Below are positions 41,400 to 52,623 of a stretch of 64,000 nucleotides of DNA, in pieces (the first letter of the stretch is position 1; each line of letters begins with the position of its first letter). Under the pieces are notes generated by a model. The model was not told where the DNA came from, did no database searches, and worked only from the letters and a program-made list of their open reading frames with translations. The stretch comes from an uncultured Eubacteriaceae bacterium. Its GTDB lineage: Bacteria; Bacillota; Clostridia; Lachnospirales; CAG-274. The position numbers and the translations under genes were made by a program. The DNA lies in the NCBI GenBank assembly GCA_947086655.1, contig CAMTZM010000005.1, positions 1 through 64,000 of the forward strand, written 5' to 3'.

Positions 41400-42191
41400 T
41401 TGAATCAAAACAAATTAAAGGTTTTAATAGCAGATGATAACAAGGATTTTTGTGATGTTGTGAGCAATTATCTCGAAAAACAAGATGATATGGAAATAGT
41501 CGGAATAGCACATGATGGTGTAGAGGCTTATGACCAGATAATGCTTATTAAACCTGATGTTGCGTTATTAGATGGTATTATGCCTCGGCTTGATGGAATA
41601 GGCGTTTTGGAAAAGCTGAACGAATCCCCTGCTTCTGTTTCGACAATGTGTATAATGCTTACAGCTATGACACAAGAGAGGATAACGCAGAAAGCTTTTA
41701 ATCTTGGGGTTCAGTATTATATTGCTAAGCCTTTTGATATGGAACTTCTTGTTTCAAGAATACGCCAGCTTCGTGAAAAAATATCTTCCCCTAATAATAA
41801 AAACGGCTCTTTCAATTCCTTCGGAAAACATTCAGAGGTAGACCTTGAGACAAGAGTAACAAATATATTGCATGAAATAGGTGTGCCGGCTCATATAAGG
41901 GGTTATCATTATATGAGAGAGGCTATTTTAATGGCGATTAATGACATAGATGTTTTAAATTATATAACAAAGGAACTTTATCCATCAATAGCAAAAAAAT
42001 GCAATACAACTCCAAGCCGTGTTGAAAGAGCAATTAGACATGCCATAGAAGTAGCATGGAGCAGAGGTAAGGTTGATGCCATTGATAATCTTTTTGGATA
42101 TACAGTAAGTAATAATAAGGGAAAACCTACAAATTCAGAATTTATTGCACTTATAGCAGACAGATTACGTTTAGAGTTAAAAGCTGGCTGA
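41400..42191 (+). CDS. spo0A: Sporulation master regulator Spo0A
   Basis: This 263-residue response regulator starts sporulation. The receiver has ADDNKDF, the phosphoacceptor Asp in [13 protein letters not shown] (about residue 57) and Lys in YIAKPFD. The C-terminal DNA-binding domain is highly conserved, with the Spo0A signature helices [19 protein letters not shown] and [20 protein letters not shown] and the end [10 protein letters not shown]. The start is TTG, 6 nt after GGAGGG. Its presence makes this a spore former, or a close descendant of one. The split sporulation gene spoVB is one gene away. Confidence 0.97.
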
Positions 42192-43076: not shown

Positions 43077-43125
43077 TTATATAAATAAGTGACGATACAA
43101 AAACTATATATATTATTATAATTTT

Positions 43126-43167
43126 AAAGCTTCTTACATATATCTAATATATGGAAGGAGCTTTTTT
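43126..43167 (+). terminator. Terminator-like hairpin that contains the spoVB ribosome binding site
   Basis: A 15-bp stem with two mismatches (43126-43142 with 43148-43164) is followed by TTTTTT and then, 2 nt later, the spoVB ATG. The GGAAGGAG ribosome binding site lies in the 3' arm. It can end transcription of the upstream gene and hide the start of spoVB translation. Confidence 0.6.
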
Positions 43168-43169
43168 AT

Positions 43170-43607
43170 ATGAAATCACAAAGTATAATAAAAGGTGCGC
43201 TTATACTTACTACGGCAAATATAATTACAAGAGTGTTAGGCTTTGTATATCGTGTTTATATGTCAAATGTAATAGGTGCAGAAGGCATGGGTCTTTATCA
43301 GCTTATTGTTCCTATATACATGCTTGTATGGAGCATTTCGTCTTCCGGTTTTACTACAACAATATCAAAATTAACGGCTCAGGAAAACGCTAAAAAAGAA
43401 TATGGAAATATAGGACGAATTTTAAAGCAATCAATGGCAGCGTCATTTTTAATTTCAATTTTTCTTGCGGTAATTGTATACATATTTTCAAATTATATAG
43501 CTGTTTCTATACTTAAAGACAACAGAGCAGAAATACCTTTAAAAGTAATTTCATTGTGTTTTCCTTTTATGGCAGCCGGTACATACATTACTATTTTGGT
43601 AATCTAA
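43170..43607 (+). CDS. spoVB: spoVB, 5' part (gene split by a mobile element)
   Basis: SpoVB is a MurJ-like member of the MOP flippase superfamily needed for spore cortex synthesis. This fragment holds the N-terminal four membrane helices (IIKGALILTTANIITRVLGF, VYMSNVIGAEGMGLYQLI and on). The genuine spoVB sequence runs to Gly137, codon GGT 43578-43580. The last eight codons before the stop (TYITILVI) belong to the inserted element. The remainder of the gene is at 51493-52623. Joined at GGT, the two parts give one continuous 512-residue protein with PFMAAGSCIRGCFLGM across the joint, of normal SpoVB length. In the present arrangement the gene is non-functional. Confidence 0.88.
   Translation: MKSQSIIKGALILTTANIITRVLGFVYRVYMSNVIGAEGMGLYQLIVPIYMLVWSISSSGFTTTISKLTAQENAKKEYGNIGRILKQSMAASFLISIFLAVIVYIFSNYIAVSILKDNRAEIPLKVISLCFPFMAAGTYITILVI
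43578..43602. other. Left junction attL of the spoVB element
   Basis: The core GGT is followed by A and a 21-nt arm (43582-43602, starting CATACATTACTA). Bases to the left are spoVB. The arm contains the last four codons of the recombinase gene, read from the other strand. Confidence 0.85.
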
Positions 43608-45093
43608 ACTTAAAAAAAATAAAGAATTCATTATTAGTCATATCAACCTCAATATTTTCTATAATTTTTTTCATCATTTCATTTGTCCATTGTTCCACAC
43701 TTACATTTAACAATTGTTTAATAGTTGATATTATTTCTTTTTCCTCATCTATATCAACAACTACTTTGTTTAAATCAGACAATGCTTTTTCTCTTTTAAC
43801 GACTAATTTCTTTAAACTTTGTTCTATAGCTTCATTTTGAAGTTTATATTGAATTTCCCCAACTAACCCTTTATTAAAGTTATCTAACAAGGAAATGGAT
43901 AAATTTGTTTTATTCTCTATTTCTTTATCAATTTTTTTAAGAGATAAATTTTCATTTGATTTTTTTATTAATCCTTTTTTTCTTTTATAAAATTCTTTAA
44001 TTTCTGAAAATTTATTTTCACTTACTGTTTTTAATTCCTCTTGTACAGCAGCAATTAGCATAGCTTCCGTAATACTGTTTCTTTTATGTCCACTGCCAGA
44101 TACCCCTTTTTGTTCATAATTAATACAAGAATAACGTGGAGTAAAATTTTCAATCTTTTTTCTTTTAAATGTAAACGCAGCACCACATATTTTACATTTA
44201 ACAATATTTGAAAACAAGTGAATATTGCTATGTCGTGATTTTCTGTTTTCCTTTACATAATTTGAACGCTTTGCAAACATTTCCTGAACAATATGAAAAT
44301 CTTTTTTGTCAATTATTGCTTCGTGGTGATTTTTATGTATCTGCCAATCTTTTTTATCTATATTTTCAAGTTTTTTTATTGTAACGTCTATTGTTTTTCT
44401 TTTCCCTTGTATTAAACTGCCTATGTAAAATTCGTTTGTTAATATATTTCTGATAAGAAATAACGACCATTCACAATTATTTTTTGTCTTGTATCCATTA
44501 TCATTTAAATAATTTGCTATTTTCCTTATTCCGTTGCCTTTCAAATACATATTGTAAATTAATTTAACAATTTTCGCTTCTTCTTCATTAATAATAAAAT
44601 TTTTTATATCTTTTGAATACTCATAGCCGTGCGGAGCGTTTGTACAATGTATCTTTCCCTCTTTATTATAGTATTGCCACGTCATTTTAATACGTTCTGA
44701 TATTTTCCTTGCCTCTTGTTCTGCAAGCCACGCAAATAAGCCGAATTGTCCCTTATCACGTTCACTGTCTAAACCGTCCTCAACAAAAATAATTCTTATA
44801 CCGCTTTCAAATAATTCAGATAAAGCGGTTAATGTTTCCCGCTGATTACGTCCAAAGCGTGAGTAAGATTTAGCAAGAAGCACATCATATCTTTTATTTT
44901 TGCCATCGTCTAAAAGCCTCTGAAACGATAACCTTTTTGTTGTTTCCGTTCCCGAAAAAGCTTCATCACTGTAAATATCATATATTTCATAGTTATATCG
45001 TTTTATGTAATCCTTGAAATATTCTTGTTGATTAATTATGCTTGTTCCCTGTTCATCGGTTGAAACTCGTGCATAAATAGCACATTTTTTCAT
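43591..45093 (-). CDS. Large serine recombinase (integrase/excisionase of the spoVB element)
   Basis: This 500-residue site-specific recombinase has the resolvase catalytic domain with the nucleophile Ser11 in YARVSTDEQ, the arginine motif YSRFGRNQRE and the long helix (LFAWLAEQEARKISERI). The recombinase domain (HGYEY..IVKLIYNMYLKGNGIRKIANYLN) follows, then a zinc-ribbon region (CKICGAAF ... YSCINYEQ) and a C-terminal coiled coil (about residues 360-460). This is the standard architecture of phage and skin-element integrases. It ends TAG at 43591-43593, inside the att arm. AGGAGG precedes its ATG. It is probably co-transcribed with the small gene 24 nt upstream. Confidence 0.95.
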   Translation of the reverse strand: MKKCAIYARVSTDEQGTSIINQQEYFKDYIKRYNYEIYDIYSDEAFSGTETTKRLSFQRLLDDGKNKRYDVLLAKSYSRFGRNQRETLTALSELFESGIRIIFVEDGLDSERDKGQFGLFAWLAEQEARKISERIKMTWQYYNKEGKIHCTNAPHGYEYSKDIKNFIINEEEAKIVKLIYNMYLKGNGIRKIANYLNDNGYKTKNNCEWSLFLIRNILTNEFYIGSLIQGKRKTIDVTIKKLENIDKKDWQIHKNHHEAIIDKKDFHIVQEMFAKRSNYVKENRKSRHSNIHLFSNIVKCKICGAAFTFKRKKIENFTPRYSCINYEQKGVSGSGHKRNSITEAMLIAAVQEELKTVSENKFSEIKEFYKRKKGLIKKSNENLSLKKIDKEIENKTNLSISLLDNFNKGLVGEIQYKLQNEAIEQSLKKLVVKREKALSDLNKVVVDIDEEKEIISTIKQLLNVSVEQWTNEMMKKIIENIEVDMTNNEFFIFFKFRLPK

Positions 45094-45117
45094 TTTTTTG
45101 CCTCCTAATTATGATAA

Positions 45118-45339
45118 TTAAATCAATTTTAAATCTATCATTTCCTTGAAAATATCAATAATTTCTTTATTTCCATATTTGTTAAAAAATTTGATTATCT
45201 TTTTTCCCTCTCTCATTACATTAATTTTTATATCATCACTTTTGTATATTGTTTTAATTTCCATATTCTCTAATTGTGACAATAAAAATTTTTCATTTTT
45301 ATTTATATATTTAATTGCGTCCTGTTCATTATCAAACAC
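45118..45339 (-). CDS. Small protein preceding the recombinase, accessory-factor candidate
   Basis: I do not recognise this protein of about 73 residues. It is charged, Lys/Glu/Ile-rich and largely helical (NEQDAIKYINKNEKFLLSQLENMEIKTIY). The likely start is GTG 45339, 6 nt after AGGTG; a GTG 9 nt upstream is an alternative. Its position just ahead of the large serine recombinase is one where a recombination directionality factor could be encoded, but no motif supports this. A perfect 9-bp inverted repeat covers the leader. Confidence 0.5.
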   Translation of the reverse strand: MFDNEQDAIKYINKNEKFLLSQLENMEIKTIYKSDDIKINVMREGKKIIKFFNKYGNKEIIDIFKEMIDLKLI

Positions 45340-45348
45340 AGAAAACAC

Positions 45349-45370
45349 CTACTATAAACAGTTATAGTAG
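45349..45370 (-). promoter_or_regulatory. Perfect inverted repeat in the leader of the small gene
   Basis: CTACTATAA (45349-45357) and TTATAGTAG (45362-45370) are separated by 4 nt and abut the ribosome binding site of the small gene. It may be an operator or a translation-blocking hairpin governing recombinase expression. Confidence 0.5.
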
Positions 45371-45428
45371 ATGTATATTTGTGACTGCTTGTCTAATATT
45401 CTATTTATTGTATATAGAATTATAAACT

Positions 45429-47516
45429 TTAATTAATAACTTTACTTTTAATACGGCGCTTAATAACAAAATAAGCAAGTATAGTAGTTATTGCGGTTAT
45501 TATCCAACTAATTGGATAGACTGCTAACAGTGTTTCAAGTGTAGGGTTATTTTGATAAATTGAATATATCCATAAAAGTCTTATTCCGCATATACCAAAA
45601 ACTGAGATTACAGCGGGAATAAATGAATAGCCATATCCATACATACTGCTTGAAAAAACTGCTATAACTAAATTAAATACTTCAAATAAAATAATAGTAA
45701 TCAGCCAATTATTATCAATATATCTATAATTTGAAAAAACAAAAAACAGCATACTTAATAAAACGGTAAAAAGTCCGCCTAATATTAAACAATATTTTAT
45801 AATTTTTGAACATCTTTCAAGTTTATTAGCGCCGTAATTTTGACTTATAAACGTTACACTTGCTATGGAAAAAGCACTAATAGCAATGTTTGCGAAAATT
45901 CCAATTTGTTGTATGGAATATAGAGTATACTCTATTGAATCTGAACGATATATTGAATCTGAATATAAATACATGCCCTTTACAATATAAATATCTGAAA
46001 ACCATAAAATAATATTTTGTAATGCTATTGGTATGCCGATTTTAAATATTTTTGATAAAACTTCTTTGTCAACATTAATCAAAATCTTTTTATCAAAACT
46101 AAAATTTCTTAAATTCAGTCTTAAGACTCCCTTTTCATTAACTAAAAAGTATATTATAAGTCCCGCACTGATTATTTGAGAAATTAAGATTGCAAAAGCT
46201 AATCCATAAAATTCCATTTCTAAATCTTCTACAAAAACCCTACCTAAAAGAATATTTATTATTCCCGAAATAAGAATACAAATTAAAGGTTTTTTCGTAT
46301 CACCTTTAATAAACATAATAGCAGCTCCACAATAGTAAAATGCCTGAAAAGGTATAGATAAAAAACAAATATTAAAAAAACTGCCGGCAGATTCAAAATC
46401 TTTATATAATGTTTCTGCTATTTGATTTGAAAAAATCAAACTAATAAAAGTAACAATTATACTGATAATTATTACTAACAAAATAGATGTATGTACCGCT
46501 TTTTTTACTTTTTCTATATTATTCTTACCAATATAATATGAAATTGTTGCATTAGTACCAATGGACAAACCTATAAATAAAGTAACAATTAATCTTATAA
46601 CATTATGATAACCAATTTTGTAAACTAAAAGGGTTGTTCTTAGATAACCATAACCTGCATAATTAAACAGTTGCTGTAATATATCTATTGCTAAAAGCGG
46701 CAATACAAAAATAAGTATTATATTTAATAAAGAACTACTTGTAATTGGATTAAAATAATCTTTATTATGTTTTAATATATTTCCTGTAATATCCAAACCA
46801 CCTGTTTTAGTAATTCTTATAAATACTTTTTCACGTCCTTTAGTTGCGATTAAAATACATATACCTATTATAAACAATGAAACTGCAACAAAAACACTCA
46901 TTTGACTACCCATCATAAATTTCCCAATAATTTTTAATGAAGCATATTCAAACCTATCATTAGCATAAGCAGAAAAATCGTAAGGGTGTTTACTGCCAAT
47001 ATAATACGCAATAAGACTGCCAATATTAGGTATAATGAGTAACCAAAATATATATTTGAAAATACTGGCTTTCTTTAATTCTGTATGCTCATTTGATTGT
47101 GATACTATTTTATAACCATTGTTTATATATTCAGAAATTGTATTTTCGTATTCCTCATCAATACTTAACGATTTAGAAGAAAAAATACCATCATTATTAT
47201 CATTAATATTTTTGTTTATAGTATCTTTTATATACACCCTGTTTGAAGCAGAAAGATTCTTTTTATAAACTTTATCACTAATATTATTATCAATAGAATT
47301 ATTTGCAGTTTGTTGCAATTTATTTAAAAAATCTATACCAATTTTAGTTTTAAATTTTCCAGTAGCTTTACATCTATCAAATAGTTGTTTGGCAATAATG
47401 GGATTATTAATATCAGTTTTAGCCTTTAAGTTTTCAATTAGCTGTAATTCTTGTTTTGCCCTTTTTGCTTCTGATTCACTATCAAATGTAAAACCGCCTA
47501 CATTATAAGTAGCCAT
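45429..47516 (-). CDS. MATE family transporter with an unusual N-terminal extension
   Basis: This 695-residue fusion has three parts. Residues 1-70 form a soluble module (YNVGGFTFDSESEAKRAKQELQL) seen in other Firmicutes proteins. Residues about 119-250 contain EEYENTISEYINNGYKIVSQSN, two membrane helices and FIRITKTGGLDITGN, paralogous to the whole of the next protein (47645-48037). Residues about 265-695 are a twelve-helix MATE antiporter (MOP superfamily) with both repeats. I start at MATYNV (47516) after AGAGGTGA. MATE proteins usually export drugs or metabolites with Na+ or H+. The cargo transporter and the interrupted SpoVB belong to the same superfamily. The function of the fused module is unknown. 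Confidence 0.82.
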   Translation of the reverse strand: MATYNVGGFTFDSESEAKRAKQELQLIENLKAKTDINNPIIAKQLFDRCKATGKFKTKIGIDFLNKLQQTANNSIDNNISDKVYKKNLSASNRVYIKDTINKNINDNNDGIFSSKSLSIDEEYENTISEYINNGYKIVSQSNEHTELKKASIFKYIFWLLIIPNIGSLIAYYIGSKHPYDFSAYANDRFEYASLKIIGKFMMGSQMSVFVAVSLFIIGICILIATKGREKVFIRITKTGGLDITGNILKHNKDYFNPITSSSLLNIILIFVLPLLAIDILQQLFNYAGYGYLRTTLLVYKIGYHNVIRLIVTLFIGLSIGTNATISYYIGKNNIEKVKKAVHTSILLVIIISIIVTFISLIFSNQIAETLYKDFESAGSFFNICFLSIPFQAFYYCGAAIMFIKGDTKKPLICILISGIINILLGRVFVEDLEMEFYGLAFAILISQIISAGLIIYFLVNEKGVLRLNLRNFSFDKKILINVDKEVLSKIFKIGIPIALQNIILWFSDIYIVKGMYLYSDSIYRSDSIEYTLYSIQQIGIFANIAISAFSIASVTFISQNYGANKLERCSKIIKYCLILGGLFTVLLSMLFFVFSNYRYIDNNWLITIILFEVFNLVIAVFSSSMYGYGYSFIPAVISVFGICGIRLLWIYSIYQNNPTLETLLAVYPISWIITAITTILAYFVIKRRIKSKVIN

Positions 47517-47644
47517 ATTTTTTATCACCTCTGCATAAAAAAACATTTTTATGTAACACCAATTTCAAAGAAAAATAATAGAAACAACTTAATTATTTAA
47601 TTCAATATCTTAAAATCAAGTTATTTCTAACTTAAAAAAATTTC

Positions 47645-48037
47645 TTAGAGCCTAGCAAATATAGCAAAAACGATAATAAGTGCAACTACAACAATTATTA
47701 TAGTAACTATAATAGAAATTTGCATTTGCTCTTTGTGCTTTTTGCATTTATCTAGAGTATATCCTGTTATTTGAAGCTGTCCAGTTTTAGTAATGCGTAT
47801 AGTTACCTGATATTCATTTTGTCTTGTATTTACAGCAGTCACCATTGTAGCTACAGTTGTTGGGCTGCCTGCTATTGCTCCGCCTATACCAGAAGCAAGC
47901 CTATCACCTTTTATAGCATCAGACTGTAATATAGTGGCATTTTCCGATTGAGCTACAATTTGGTAACCATTTTCTAAATATAAATTTATTGCTTTTTCAT
48001 ATTCTTCTTCAATATCAAAGTCATCATCTATTTTCAT
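47645..48037 (-). CDS. Small membrane protein, stand-alone version of the module fused to the MATE transporter
   Basis: This 130-residue protein has an N-terminal acidic helix (DIEEEYEKAINLYLENGYQIVAQ), a Gly-rich middle (ASGIGGAIAGSPTT), the strand VTIRITKTGQLQITGYTL and a strongly hydrophobic C-terminal helix. The first and third segments match residues about 119-250 of the neighbouring MATE fusion, so the genes share a duplicated domain. I start at ATG 48037 after AGAGGG. It overlaps the end of a 26-codon frame and is probably coupled to it. The function is unknown. Confidence 0.65.
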   Translation of the reverse strand: MKIDDDFDIEEEYEKAINLYLENGYQIVAQSENATILQSDAIKGDRLASGIGGAIAGSPTTVATMVTAVNTRQNEYQVTIRITKTGQLQITGYTLDKCKKHKEQMQISIIVTIIIVVVALIIVFAIFARL

Positions 48038-48104
48038 TTTTAACCCTCTTTTCATATTTATTAAGAATATTTAATGGTATAGAAGAAAGATTTTCAGCAT
48101 CCAT
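48024..48104 (-). CDS. 26-codon leader or small protein frame
   Basis: A near-ideal GGAGGTGATAAA-ATG begins a frame MDAENLSSIPLN..., ending at TGA 48024-48026, 13 nt inside the next gene. The ribosome binding site is stronger than that of the following gene, whose own AGAGGG lies within this frame. It is a likely translational-coupling leader or a microprotein. It is too short to assign further. Confidence 0.45.
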   Translation of the reverse strand: MDAENLSSIPLNILNKYEKRVKNENR

Positions 48105-48134
48105 TTTATCACCTCCGTATTAAAAAATATTTTT

Positions 48135-48158
48135 TTGTAATAATAAATTTTATTACAA
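48135..48158 (-). promoter_or_regulatory. Inverted repeat upstream of the membrane-module operon
   Basis: TTGTAATAA (48135-48143) and TTATTACAA (48150-48158) are perfect inverted arms 30 nt upstream of the 26-codon frame. This is an operator or hairpin candidate, possibly bound by the divergent Xre regulator. Confidence 0.45.
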
Positions 48159-48434
48159 ATTCTTATCTTTGCAGTATATTGTCAGCAAAATTTTATTTGA
48201 TTTTACAGTATTCAAAGAAAAATTGTAATGTACTATTCGGGATTAATATATAATATTTGGGAATATAAATTTTCTTAAAATCAATACTACAATATCAAAA
48301 AATAAGGATTTTCCGCCATTTCTTAAATAGATTTTATAACACCAAGTATGTAAAACATAATAACATTTTACTGCAAATTTTTAGCTTTGTAGTCTGCTGT
48401 CAACAGAATTCTATTTAATTTTATCATATTCAAA
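48150..48434. repeat. Degenerate direct repeat of about 68 bp, two copies
   Basis: Copy A (48150-48216) and copy B (48366-48434) share strings such as CAAATT-TTA-CTTTG-AGT, TGTCA-CA-AATT-TATTT and ATTTTA-CA-TATTCAAA with scattered substitutions. They lie in the 430-nt gap between divergent genes. They could be ancient duplicates, regulatory sites or recombinase accessory sites. Confidence 0.5.
48289..48342 (+). repeat. Internal copy of the element's right-end sequence
   Basis: The stretch beginning CAATATCAAAAAATAAGGA is closely similar over about 54 nt to 51421-51474, which leads directly into the right att arm. It contains the same TTTC-GCC-TTTCTTAAA core and ends in ACACC versus TTACC. 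Confidence 0.5.
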
Positions 48435-48463
48435 TTATATCGTCAATAAAAATTATACTTTTT

Positions 48464-48480
48464 ATTCATATAATATGAAT
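48464..48480 (+). promoter_or_regulatory. Palindrome overlapping the Xre gene promoter
   Basis: ATTCATA-TAA-TATGAAT is a perfect 7+3+7 palindrome that includes a TATAAT box (48469-48474) about 65 nt upstream of the regulator start. It is a candidate autorepression operator. Confidence 0.5.
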
Positions 48481-48538
48481 TATTATCAATTCAAATAATA
48501 AAAATTTTACGCTATTATTGAATAAAGAGGTGTTTATA

Positions 48539-48907
48539 ATGAATAAAAAGGATAAATTTATTTTTGACAAAGATTTAGTAAAAGACCGTATACGTGAACT
48601 TAGAAAACTTAGAAATTTAACACAGGAACAAGCAAGCGAATTAATAGGTATGAAAGACAGTAATTCGTGGGCGAAGCTGGAAAGTCATAAAGGAACATTA
48701 GCATTATCATTTGATAATTTAATACGTATTGTAAATTTATTTGATATTGATGTAAATTACATTTTTAGAAACAATGAAACAGAGGAACAAGAGAGGGAGC
48801 GGCATACGGAAACTCTTGTTGTTTCTATGATGAAAGATCTTAGTGAAAAAGATAAACAATTAATCTTATCAATGATAAGTCTTTTCAGACAAAATAGAGA
48901 TATATAA
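48539..48907 (+). CDS. Xre-family HTH transcriptional regulator of the element
   Basis: This 122-residue protein has a Cro/CI-type helix-turn-helix at residues about 10-70 (RIRELRKLRNLTQEQASELIGMKDSNSWAKLESHKGTL, then FDNLIRIVNLFDIDVNYIF) and a C-terminal helical tail (LSEKDKQLILSMISLF). I start at ATG 48539 after AAAGAGGTG; a TTG 21 nt upstream is not supported. It is divergent from the membrane-module genes, and palindromes lie on both sides of the gap. It probably represses element functions until induced. Confidence 0.85.
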   Translation: MNKKDKFIFDKDLVKDRIRELRKLRNLTQEQASELIGMKDSNSWAKLESHKGTLALSFDNLIRIVNLFDIDVNYIFRNNETEEQERERHTETLVVSMMKDLSEKDKQLILSMISLFRQNRDI

Positions 48908-49000
48908 AAATTTACCTTCATTTCAGAATTATTAAATAAATGCCTACAAATCTTTTTTGAAATTAAAAAAACTTCTTAATAATTTCCCTAAATTCAAAAT

Positions 49001-49097
49001 TTGAAAAATCAAAAATATAATGTTATAATAAAATGTAAAAACCACAAAAGCCAAAATTTCCTTTTTTACAAATAATAGGAAAATTGGCTTTTTTTAT
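49001..49097 (+). promoter_or_regulatory. Promoter followed by a leader terminator (attenuator candidate) before the helicase-like gene
   Basis: TTGAAA (49001-49006), a 17-nt spacer and TATAAT (49024-49029) form a near-consensus promoter. About 10 nt past the expected start of transcription, a hairpin (AGCCAAAATTTCC ... GGAAAATTGGCT) with a run of seven T ends near 49097, before the AGGAGG of the next gene. Transcription would have to read through it. Confidence 0.6.
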
Positions 49098-49125
49098 TTC
49101 AAAAACAGGAGGAAATATATAAAAA

Positions 49126-50364
49126 ATGAAAGGAATTAAATTTGTAAGTGACATAGTAGATATAACAAAATTTAAAAGCGGTTGTTTAAATCTTATAAAT
49201 TGTCCGACAGGTTCGGGAAAAAGTTATTTTATTGAAAGTAAATTAAGAAAAACTGCAAAACATCAAAATGGAATTTTATATATAATAGATACAAGTATGG
49301 GAAAATCTCAAATTATATCAACTTTTAAAAATGTAAAAAATTACAGTAAATCGTGGAGAGAGGACAAAAATGGAAGCACCACCATATATAATACAGGATG
49401 GGGAAATCAAGAAGACAGTATGACAATAATGACGTATGCACAAGTAGGAGCGGTTTTATATTACGGACACCTTTTTGACTGGAGTAAATTTGAGTATATT
49501 GTTCTTGATGAAATTCATAATTTAATAAATTATCAGAATATACCGTCTTTTGACGAAAACGGCAAAAGTATTAATATTTTAAAGTACGCAAAAGATAAAA
49601 TTGACGATACAGTTAAAAATTATCCTAATGTTAAAATAATCGCTTTAACTGCAACACCAGAAAAAGTATATCAGCACTTCAATAACGTTTTTGATGTAAT
49701 AAGTAAACAAGAATATCTTTCTTTAAGAAATTATGAAAGTTTTAAAGTGGATTATTACAGAGATTATATGAAGGTTATTCAGCAAATACCAAAAGGACAG
49801 AAAGGTATTATTTATTTTACAACAATTTCTAAAATTAAAGAAGTTGAGAAATTTTTATCAAGCCATAATTATAAAACAGGAAGTTTTTGGAGTATTAGTA
49901 ATGAAAAATACCAAATGAGTGATGAACAAAAGTTAGTCAGAAAATATATAATAGAAAATCAGAAAATGCCGAAAGATATTGATATATTATTGATTAACGC
50001 TTCTTGTGAAACAGGTGTAAATATCAAGAATAATGATATAGATTTTATTATAATACATTCAGAAAACAATGACACAATAACACAAGTAAGAGGACGATTA
50101 AGAAATGATTTAAAACAATTATATCTGTATTCAAAATATTTTGTTGATATTCCGAATGAAGTACCTCAGGAATACTTGAATATTAAATTAACTAAGGACG
50201 ATTTAGATATATTATGTGAGGAAAAAATAAGGTTATTAAATAAAAAAGATAAACCTTTAAAATGGAACTCTGTAAGTAAATTTTTATTATATAATGGATA
50301 TGAAATAGAAGAAACAACTTTAAAAGGGCGAAAAGCGAAAGTTATTAGAAAAAGCAATAATTAA
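49126..50364 (+). CDS. SF2 helicase-like ATPase of the element
   Basis: This 412-residue protein has the superfamily 2 helicase motifs: Walker A CPTGSGKSYF (about residues 26-35), motif II DEIH, motif III LTATP, a second RecA-like lobe with IIYFTTIS, motif V INASCETGVNI and motif VI QVRGRLRND. There is no nuclease, primase or zinc domain. Such short DEAD/DEAH-like proteins occur on small integrative elements and phages, where the job is usually unknown. AGGAGG is well placed before the ATG. A possible attenuator precedes it. Confidence 0.78.
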   Translation: MKGIKFVSDIVDITKFKSGCLNLINCPTGSGKSYFIESKLRKTAKHQNGILYIIDTSMGKSQIISTFKNVKNYSKSWREDKNGSTTIYNTGWGNQEDSMTIMTYAQVGAVLYYGHLFDWSKFEYIVLDEIHNLINYQNIPSFDENGKSINILKYAKDKIDDTVKNYPNVKIIALTATPEKVYQHFNNVFDVISKQEYLSLRNYESFKVDYYRDYMKVIQQIPKGQKGIIYFTTISKIKEVEKFLSSHNYKTGSFWSISNEKYQMSDEQKLVRKYIIENQKMPKDIDILLINASCETGVNIKNNDIDFIIIHSENNDTITQVRGRLRNDLKQLYLYSKYFVDIPNEVPQEYLNIKLTKDDLDILCEEKIRLLNKKDKPLKWNSVSKFLLYNGYEIEETTLKGRKAKVIRKSNN

Positions 50365-50629
50365 TATAAAATTCTGCTTTTATAGGAAAAACCTTTAATA
50401 GTATTTTCTTGTAAAAGTAGAATTTTTATTATAGGGGGCGAATAGTTATGTGGAAATTTTTAATTTTATATCTAAAAAAATAGCAATCTGAATAATAATC
50501 GTTCAATTATAGTGTATTTGTCGCAGGCAAGATAACATAATTGTTTAAGTTTTCAATAATCAATAAAATTTATATATTTATGTTATTATGAAATGGCATA
50601 TATTTTTATTGTTCATAAAGGTATACTTA

Positions 50630-50745
50630 TACGAATAACTCAAAAAGCTAAAAATAAATTAATATTATGTATTCGTAAAACTTAAATTTTATTTTACGAA
50701 TATGTTCGTTTTTATATTGATGTTTACGAATATATCTGATATAAT
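50630..50745 (+). promoter_or_regulatory. Four TACGAATA boxes and promoter upstream of the small serine recombinase
   Basis: TACGAATA occurs at 50630-50637, inverted at 50670-50677, and direct at 50695-50702 and 50725-50732. The last lies between -35 TTGATG (50717-50722) and -10 TATAAT (50740-50745). Serine resolvases often bind repeated sites beside their own gene (res) and repress themselves. The rest of 50365-50629 shows only an 11-codon ATG frame at 50448 with a GGGGG upstream, not called as a gene. Confidence 0.5.
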
Positions 50746-50778
50746 TTATTTAGTTAAATTATAAAGGAGTGTTCGCAA

Positions 50779-51387
50779 ATGAATAATAGAATATATGGAT
50801 ATATCAGAGTGTCCGCTAAAGACCAGAACGAGGCAAGACAGATAGAAGCCTTAAAATCAGCGGGAGTTGATGAAAGATTTATATTTCTTGACAAATCAAG
50901 CGGAAAAAATTTTAACCGTAATGAATATCAAGTATTAAAACGAGCGTTGCGTGAACAAGATACATTAATTATAAAATCAATAGACAGGTTAGGCAGAAAT
51001 TACACTGAAATTATTCAAGAATGGAAAGAAATAACAAAGGATATTAAAGCAAATATAAAAGTGCTTGATATGCCATTATTAGATACGTCTGTAAACACTA
51101 AAGATTTAATAGGAACATTCATTGCTGATTTAGTTTTACAAATACTTTCTTATGTGGCAGAGACGGAGAGGCTGAATATAAGACAAAGGCAAGCTGAAGG
51201 AATAAAAATTGCAAAAGAAAACGGAAAACATTTAGGCAGACCTAAAGCGAAATTTCCTTCCGATTTTAATAATGTATATCAATCGTGGAAAGACGGAAAA
51301 TTAACCGCCAAAATTGCTATGGAACAATTAAATTTAAAAAGAACTACTTTTTATAAATTAGTCAATGAATATGAATCTAACAAATAA
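50779..51387 (+). CDS. Small serine recombinase (resolvase/invertase family)
   Basis: This 202-residue recombinase has the catalytic Ser in GYIRVSAKDQNEARQ, the arginine motif SIDRLGRNYTEI, the E-helix (LQILSYVAETERLNIRQRQAEGI) and a C-terminal helix-turn-helix (GRPKAKFP ... TAKIAMEQLNLKRTTFYKLVNEY). These are features of resolvases and DNA invertases rather than integrases. AAGGAG lies before the ATG. Its gene is at the right end of the element, opposite the large recombinase, and repeated boxes upstream may be its binding sites. It may resolve dimers or be a passenger. Confidence 0.9.
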   Translation: MNNRIYGYIRVSAKDQNEARQIEALKSAGVDERFIFLDKSSGKNFNRNEYQVLKRALREQDTLIIKSIDRLGRNYTEIIQEWKEITKDIKANIKVLDMPLLDTSVNTKDLIGTFIADLVLQILSYVAETERLNIRQRQAEGIKIAKENGKHLGRPKAKFPSDFNNVYQSWKDGKLTAKIAMEQLNLKRTTFYKLVNEYESNK

Positions 51388-51420
51388 AAAATATAATATC
51401 AAAAAAATTGTATTTTAATA

Positions 51421-51474
51421 CAATATCAAAAAAGACGGTTTTTCTGCCCTTTCTTAAACAAATCTAATTTTACC
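51421..51474 (+). repeat. Right-end copy of the element's internal repeat
   Basis: This is similar over about 54 nt to 48289-48342 and runs into the right att arm. It may be an accessory binding region for recombination. Confidence 0.45.
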
Positions 51475-51495
51475 AATTTAGTAATGTATGCAGGT
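51470..51495. other. Right junction attR of the spoVB element
   Basis: A 21-nt arm (51470-51490, ending AGTAATGTATG) is followed by CA and the core GGT. Bases to the right are spoVB. The arm is the reverse complement of the left arm (43582-43602) at 19 of 21 positions. Confidence 0.85.
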
Positions 51496-52623
51496 TCATG
51501 TATAAGAGGCTGTTTTTTAGGAATGAGACAGTCCAATGTTCCGGCAGCAAGTCAAGTAATTGAACAGCTTGCAAGAATGAGTGTTATTTTTCTTCTTGCA
51601 AAAAATTTTATTCCCCGTGGAATTGAGGCGGCTGCAACAGCCGCTATATTGGGAACATGTGCCGGAGAAATTATATCGTTTTTATATGTTCTTTTTTCTT
51701 ACAGATTGTTTAAAACAAAAAATCGTTTAAACAAGAAACCTGTAATTTCTCCTATTAAATCTTTAATAATGATAATGACTATGGCATTACCTCTTACAGC
51801 AAACAGAGTTACAGGTTCACTTTTATCAACAGTTGAAAATATAATGATTCCAGAAAAACTTAAAGCTTATGGAATGACATCTGTTGAGGCAATAAGCTCT
51901 TATGGACAGCTTACAGGAATGGCGATGCCGCTTCTTATGTTTCCATCGTCGCTTCTTACGGCTATTTCAGTATCACTTGTTCCGGCTGTATCAGAGGCGA
52001 TAGCTAAACGCAATACGTCTTCAATTTCAGAGACACTTACAAAATCAATGCTTTTTACTCTTATAACAGGTATTGGAACAGCCGGACTTTTTGTAACTTT
52101 TTCTGATGAAATTGGGCTTATGATTTATAATGAAGCTGAAATAGGACCTCTCCTTTTTCAAATGGGTTTTATATGTCCATTTTTATATTGTCAGGTAACG
52201 CTTTCTGGAATATTAAATGGTTTGGGAGAACAAATGTTTATTTTTAGAAATAGTCTTATATCATCTGCTATAAATATATTTTTTATATTTTTTCTTATTC
52301 CCGTTTATGGAATATATGCTTTTACAGTAGGTATGTTTGTAAGTATGATGACAGTTAGTTTACTTGCAATAAGTAAAATTATAACGAAAACAGAACTTAT
52401 GATTGACATAGTTAATTCTGTAATTAAACCAATTATATGTATAAGTGCAAGCTGTCTTACTGCAAGACTTATTTATAATCATCTATCAGTAGGTATACCA
52501 AACAAAATTCAAACAATATTGTCGGTTATACTAACAGGAGTATTTTATTGTATATTATTAATAGAAACAGGCTGTATAACAAAAAAAGATATAAATATGA
52601 TAATAAAAAGAATACCAAAATAA
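51493..52623 (+). CDS. spoVB: spoVB, 3' part (gene split by a mobile element)
   Basis: This is the remaining 376 codons of spoVB, starting with the shared GGT codon. It gives GSCIRGCFLGMRQSNVPAASQVIEQ, then about ten further membrane helices typical of the SpoVB/MurJ-like MOP family. The nearest ATG in frame (51484) is encoded by the element's att arm and has no ribosome binding site, so this part is probably not translated alone. The frame and conserved sequence continue exactly from Gly137 of the 5' part. No internal stops or frameshifts have accumulated, which argues that the gene is still used after excision. Confidence 0.88.
   Translation, partial: GSCIRGCFLGMRQSNVPAASQVIEQLARMSVIFLLAKNFIPRGIEAAATAAILGTCAGEIISFLYVLFSYRLFKTKNRLNKKPVISPIKSLIMIMTMALPLTANRVTGSLLSTVENIMIPEKLKAYGMTSVEAISSYGQLTGMAMPLLMFPSSLLTAISVSLVPAVSEAIAKRNTSSISETLTKSMLFTLITGIGTAGLFVTFSDEIGLMIYNEAEIGPLLFQMGFICPFLYCQVTLSGILNGLGEQMFIFRNSLISSAINIFFIFFLIPVYGIYAFTVGMFVSMMTVSLLAISKIITKTELMIDIVNSVIKPIICISASCLTARLIYNHLSVGIPNKIQTILSVILTGVFYCILLIETGCITKKDINMIIKRIPK

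Follow-up and report, generated by a model that had tools for sequence, protein, structure and literature searches.

spoVB of an uncultured Eubacteriaceae bacterium is split by a large serine recombinase element, probably a new sporulation-gene intervening element

Genes that some spore formers keep in two pieces, separated by an intervening element, include sigK, spsM, spoVFB, spoVR, gerE and yabG (PMC5595907, PMC4191935, PMC10747680, PMC5025042). Here we describe a 7915-bp insert that interrupts spoVB in frame in an uncultured Eubacteriaceae bacterium (assembly GCA_947086655.1, referred to as G000), within the first 64,000 nucleotides of contig CAMTZM010000005.1, the stretch that we analysed and call the window. 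The insert is best read as a new sporulation-gene intervening element of the skin, SP-beta and gin kind, in a host gene that appears to be new.

The described systems, as far as the sources cited here portray them, compare with this locus as follows. First, gin, in gerE of Bacillus cereus ATCC10987, is 28.6 kb long, has three recombinases, and was shown experimentally to be rearranged so that its host gene is reconstituted during sporulation (PMC5595907). As in the window, the in-frame interruption of a sporulation gene is due to a non-phage element with serine recombinases, but gin sits in another gene, is larger and has three recombinases, and its rearrangement is experimental, whereas the window's element is known from sequence. 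Second, skin, in sigK of Bacillus subtilis and Clostridioides difficile, is likewise a large serine recombinase (LSR) element splitting a gene and is removed by its LSR in the mother cell (PMC5025042, PMC4191935); however, it is prophage-like, and sigK is unbroken in G000 (317 bits against a cut-off of 298.65), as is spo0A. Third, SP-beta, an LSR element inside spsM whose precise excision restores this sporulation gene, is an active phage (PMC4191935), whereas no phage structural family was matched by the seven proteins of the window's insert that we tested. Fourth, yin splits yabG, a clostridial sporulation gene, in Clostridium botulinum, with its recombinase gene beside the 5' fragment as in the window; it resembles a prophage and is portrayed as restricted to a single strain (PMC10747680), whereas for the element of the window a second species carries an insert with a homologous LSR at the very same codon.

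The insert in spoVB and its boundaries

Fusing the two flanks of the insert at the GGT that they share gives a frame of 512 codons without internal stops. The N half scores 134.4 bits against TIGR02900 (stage V sporulation protein B), over model positions 2-131, and the C half 238.2 bits, over positions 133-488; both are below the model's cut-off of 372.3, which the joined protein exceeds (379.1 bits). Across 31 aligned SpoVB proteins, the joined sequence departs from one of the 58 columns that are invariant elsewhere, and in the midpoint-rooted tree its root-to-tip distance is the second shortest of the 31; thus, spoVB bears no sign of decay in G000. In the whole assembly (2.79 Mb, 96 contigs, 100% complete) no second SpoVB was found besides the two halves and one paralogue of 27% identity, and matches of this paralogue grade are present in most relatives too. 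The initial annotation, which had described two undamaged SpoVB fragments 7915 bp apart on the same strand, with the same GGT at the break, joining into an uninterrupted 512-residue protein beside spo0A (which adjoins spoVB upstream at 41400-42191; TIGR02875), is therefore confirmed in these respects, and the intact second spoVB that it had named as evidence to the contrary is not found in this assembly.

The shared GGT is by itself weak evidence for a boundary, as three common bases may arise by chance. What fixes the boundary is the attP site reconstituted by joining the ends of the insert, TTACCA-N17-GG-N17-TGGTAA, in which 20 of the 25 arm positions are complementary about the central GG; the best of attL, attR and attB reaches 11. 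Palindromic attP sites of this form are typical of LSRs. Chance was rejected as the origin of the palindrome, since none of 20000 shuffles and none of 20000 random joins within the same stretch reached 20, the maximum being 19 in each. An assembly error was also rejected as the cause of the split, as both halves lie on one 128.7-kb contig and a misjoin would not yield the attP symmetry. Judged from these features, the insertion is close to certain to be LSR-mediated and precisely reversible.

The LSR itself (Resolvase, Recombinase and Zn-ribbon domains) is encoded beside attL, its last codons lying inside the attP arm on the side of the N half (Table 1). Five of the seven insert proteins tested against PHROGs matched integrase, invertase, transposase, regulator, helicase or unknown families, two had no match, and none matched a structural or packaging family, from which we take the insert not to be prophage-like. 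PADLOC matches in the insert were limited to the HTH and helicase proteins, and the 136-aa protein had no family match in profile searches. Separately, a 69-nt repeat of 77% identity (48285-48353 and 51416-51484) places a degenerate copy of the attR-side end inside the insert, which suggests an old end, perhaps, and hence a composite element.

Table 1. Coordinates of spoVB, of the element and of its features within the window.
Feature	Position	Strand	Evidence
sigma-E-like promoter of spoVB, ATAAT-N14-CATATATC, 33 nt before start	43118..43144	+	matrix score, upstream regions
spoVB N half, codons 1-136	43170..43577	+	TIGR02900 match
spoVB-intervening element (proposed), 7915 bp	43578..51492	.	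flank rejoining
attL side: core GG and 23-nt attP arm ending TGGTAA	43578..43602	.	rejoining, symmetry test
LSR, 500 aa	43591..45093	-	PF00239, PF07508, PF13408; phrog_95 integrase, 1e-109
small open reading frame (ORF), candidate directionality factor	45118..45348	-	24 bp upstream of LSR
leader hairpin over likely ribosome-binding site of small ORF	45345..45374	-	folding, z -3.76
weak sigma-E-like site, ATAAT-N13-AATAGAAT, upstream of small ORF and LSR	45398..45423	-	10.6 bits
MATE-family transporter, 705 aa, cargo	45429..47546	-	profile match
136-aa protein, apparently related to part of the MATE cargo	47645..48055	-	by eye; DNA repeats D2, D3
helix-turn-helix (HTH; XRE-type) regulator	48518..48907	+	HTH_19, PHROG match
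DEAD/ResIII helicase-like protein	49126..50364	+	profile and PHROG match
small serine resolvase/invertase, 202 aa	50779..51387	+	profile and PHROG match
attR side: 23-nt attP arm beginning TTACCA and core GG	51470..51494	.	rejoining, symmetry test
spoVB C half, codons 137-512 and stop	51493..52623	+	TIGR02900 match

Promoter-like sites were read with what we take to be the sigma-E consensus. By eye, about 15 of 40 spoVB upstream regions have ATAWW-N13/14-CATANAAT some 33 nt before the gene, and G000 keeps a version of it, which scores 10.3 bits when G000 is left out of the training set, a value reached by 180 of 5000 resamples. The matrix consists of 15 sites typed by hand from the 40 regions, in which two genomes occur twice, and since this is a biased set the bit scores are descriptive. 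Hits of at least 9 bits number 11 in the element, against 5.6 (sd 2.4) in 40 shuffles, so these scattered promoter-like hits mean little.

The small ORF upstream of the LSR is a candidate recombination directionality factor (RDF). It had no match in the family, PHROG or PADLOC searches, but is 51% identical to an ORF directly upstream of a 53%-identical LSR in a phage-associated locus (L071), whose leader can also fold over the likely ribosome-binding site. An IMG/VR contig, some genes of which look phage-like by eye, also has the L071 region. We name the ORF a candidate because it is paired with an LSR in two elements, because a weak sigma-E-like site lies upstream, and because the RDF of C. 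difficile is specific to the mother cell: according to PMC5025042, an RDF under sigma-E control sets the timing of skin excision there, while the LSR is expressed constitutively.

spoVB in related genomes

Among 48 genomes surveyed in the family, spoVB is contiguous across both of the break sites considered here in 37, some of these being truncated by a contig edge at another point; only G000 is split at the window's site, and three (G014, G035 and G069) are split near a second site. G071 has an N fragment only, G065 two overlapping pieces, probably owing to a frameshift, and in five of the 48 no spoVB orthologue was found. Truncations of spoVB in G191, G153 and G128 lie at contig ends and were not taken as splits; G124, G173, G141 and G080 are left out of the account.

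The LSR family of the window is rare, with matches at E ≤1e-60 in five of 392 genomes of the order, two of which are only 33-34% identical; a scan of named genomes with this LSR led to four loci. In L072, from a Defluviitaleaceae metagenome-assembled genome (G163, = G073; genus g45, in a different family of that order), spoVB is split at the same codon. The LSR of G163 is 77% identical to that of the window in its N part and 60% over residues 81-499, and in its attP the spacing of TTACCA and TGGTAA from GG is that of the window. Over the 25 positions the symmetry is only 12/25, and what agrees with the window is the core GG and, in the outer arms, TTACCA/TGGTAA; conservation of the LSR-side arm may in part reflect protein constraint, since this arm is coding in both elements. 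The G163 element is reversed relative to that of the window, as its LSR abuts the C half of spoVB, and the core reads GG, not CC, in the frame of this LSR. Its cargo is unlike the window's, with small CotF-type coat-like ORFs and a rubrerythrin (named by eye). The simplest reading would be that G000 and G163 represent two independent insertions.

Within genus g45, spoVB is essentially complete and unsplit in seven of ten members (one, G210, at a contig edge), G134 has it as one frame with an insertion, and no orthologue was found in G256. Comparison of the split G163 gene with six intact relatives gave ratios of nonsynonymous to synonymous substitution rates (dN/dS) of 0.06-0.08, and the computable intact pairs 0.05-0.13; since nearly all dS values exceed 1, these ratios can be taken only as consistent with selection.

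At the second site, elements with as many as three LSRs interrupt spoVB of genus g6 some 50 residues in (G014 and G035; G069 in part), and in another family two genomes of genus g49, G092 and G120, have within spoVB a collinear 7.5-kb element with three LSRs, 82% identical in DNA between the two. As far as gin has been described, these three-LSR elements are closer to it than is the element of the window. In-frame joins exist for G014, G035, G092 and G120; in G069 (L118, L119; single contig), the C part with three LSRs is on the same strand as the N piece, about 88 kb away. Two further g6 genomes, G029 and G070, each have an intact spoVB plus a fragment of the interrupted form. The 14-kb interval between the spoVB pieces of G014 (L033, G014:C23) also holds, besides its three LSRs, an apparent arginine-biosynthesis set (by eye).

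These second-site genes allow selection to be estimated on spoVB in its split state. For the C parts of G092 and G120, dS is 0.74 and dN/dS 0.069 (450 codons), the N pieces have a dN/dS of 0.029 (50 codons), and no other spoVB was found in either genome at E 1e-48 among the candidates scored. The C parts of G014, G035 and G069 have pairwise dN/dS of 0.17-0.19, against 0.15-0.21 between split and intact genes and 0.13 for the only intact pair, in a set that left out G022. As a gene dead since insertion would drift towards a dN/dS of 1, these values are the strongest evidence that interrupted spoVB in this order still works, for which the obvious way would be removal of the element.

Other split genes in the source genome

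G000 has 28 recombinase-domain matches, all of which are covered by the window and the 18 further stretches that we examined. First, cwlD, described together with spoVB as a sigma-E-controlled cortex gene in B. subtilis (PMC517825), is split by a 4491-bp LSR insert with core GGT (G000:C6:57870-62360; L135, L162). The joined CwlD scores 220.4 bits against TIGR02883, just below the cut-off of 221.55, and cwlD is contiguous in 35 of the 48 family genomes (rows read by eye). In G029 it is broken close by, the C part following directly after three LSR-like ORFs (L160, G029:C14:1-7000), so that cwlD, too, may be a repeated target. The insert in G000 also has CheR- and CheB-like ORFs (named by eye). 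Second, a LysM-GH18 gene (L141, G000:C8:38000-49000), which we take from its architecture to be SleL/YaaH-like, is split in frame by 4927 bp with an LSR; both breaks share TACACATAT, and the pieces cover GH18 positions 20-182 and 212-314. Third, an S8 peptidase gene (G000:C2:103230-110225; L146, L142) is split in frame by 6996 bp, in which four tRNA genes and a gene resembling DAHP synthase (by eye) accompany the LSR. Fourth, a small Cys/Asn-rich gene (L140, G000:C1:93000-104000) is split in frame by 1903 bp with little beyond the LSR. All four located pairs rejoin in frame.

In addition, a manganese catalase (CotJC-like) is probably split by an LSR insert: its C part (L136:6651-7346; G000:C19) begins at model position 28 shortly after an LSR, and a motif search of the ORFs in the 27 kb examined (G000:C19:17000-36999 and L136) did not find the N part.

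Proposed mechanism and alternative explanations

We conclude, with a probability of roughly three in four, that the insert is a non-prophage LSR mobile element that integrated in spoVB and is kept as a sporulation-gene intervening element; what we infer is its excision, the restriction of this event to mother cells and which ORF serves as the RDF. We propose that the element integrated at the GG within the codon for Gly137 of SpoVB, and that spoVB would be off in growing cells, so that the insert would cost them little. In the sporulating mother cell, the LSR and its directionality factor, for which the small ORF is the candidate, would recombine attL with attR at GG, releasing a 7.9-kb circle and leaving spoVB restored to 512 codons and driven by its own sigma-E-type promoter. 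The insert would be retained in the forespore, and the element would therefore be inherited. That excision is linked to sporulation is likely in view of the several genes split in G000 and of the selection that acts on interrupted spoVB in other genomes.

The initial annotation had arrived at the same kind of element. Its proposal is supported by the LSR beside attL, the palindromic attP, the in-frame rejoining and the promoter-like site before the N half, and is further backed by the same-codon split in a second species and the second-site dN/dS values of 0.069 and 0.17-0.19. Its remark that it knew of no description of spoVB as such a host gene agrees with our searches of the open-access literature (bioRxiv preprints being outside this scope), which brought up no paper describing an insert in either spoVB or cwlD.

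Several observations weigh against this interpretation. An excised junction was not seen for the window's own spoVB in the assembled sequence. The sigma-E-like site before the small ORF is weak, since resampling the 81-bp gap 5000 times gave its score or better in 142 cases (about a 3% chance); the structure model of this ORF has low confidence (mean predicted local distance difference test, pLDDT, 66.8), too poor for a fold search; and no like ORF was seen beside the G163 LSR in an ORF listing read by eye, with no dedicated search. At the second site, several short shared words permit in-frame joins, so the core is not pinned down there, and the N piece of G069 departs after about residue 39, so that its two located pieces are not exactly rejoinable, residues ~40-50 being in neither. 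A role in sporulation is not established for the S8 peptidase or for the small Cys/Asn-rich gene. The genomes compared include no same-genus relative of G000, and therefore a recent, undecayed insertion could still account for spoVB taken alone. Lastly, the initial annotation had named relatives with decayed spoVB halves and the same insert as counter-evidence, and this applies in part: G216 (L120:1-600) has one decayed spoVB piece, broken at the window's codon; however, an intact spoVB lies about 1.5 kb from it, and the start of the fragment's gene is at the end of another contig.

Some of these observations would also fit another account, which we consider unlikely, namely that an ordinary LSR element recently knocked out spoVB, that decay has not begun and that the strain does not complete spores. 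In its favour are the lack of a sister species to date the insertion and of a proven directionality factor, the plentiful recombinase-domain matches in G000 and the decayed piece with the same break in G216. It sits poorly, however, with at least four further G000 genes split in frame whose joined frames are undecayed, with purifying selection on split spoVB in other genera, and with use of the same site in another family, where the halves are intact and pairwise dN/dS is 0.06-0.08.

Excision might instead be real but stochastic, in the manner of phase variation, with a minority of cells losing the insert at any time and only these sporulating well. The coexistence of intact and interrupted forms in G029 and G070 could be taken in this sense, as could the report that yin of C. 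botulinum is excised at all time points (PMC10747680). Yet more than one strain may be mixed in these assemblies (in G029, 1 of 221 shared bases differs between the two copies), and germ-line loss would strip the element from descendants unless it were re-inserted. We consider this explanation quite improbable. That another flippase, the MATE cargo or the 27% paralogue, replaces SpoVB and makes the split irrelevant is hardly credible: both are related transporters, but the MATE cargo reaches 21.8 bits against TIGR02900, far under the cut-off, and paralogue-grade matches are also found in most relatives that keep an intact spoVB.

Taking the spoVB element together with the other inserts, a broader reading is evenly balanced between being right and wrong: sporulation of this organism would need the mother cell to remove a separate LSR insert from each of spoVB, cwlD, the LysM-GH18 gene, the S8 protease, the Cys/Asn-rich gene and probably the manganese catalase, and in the order spoVB would be a standing target of different LSR elements at two sites, the first used in both orientations.

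If the insert is indeed an intervening element, spoVB, a cortex gene, joins the list of spore genes that are kept in pieces; three families of a single order have it split, and in two or more of these the split gene is still under selection. The wider surprise is that one genome has several genes split at once, including at least two for the spore cortex. Such a genome would make directly testable the question why spore formers tolerate or use these inserts, for example whether a single signal releases them all.

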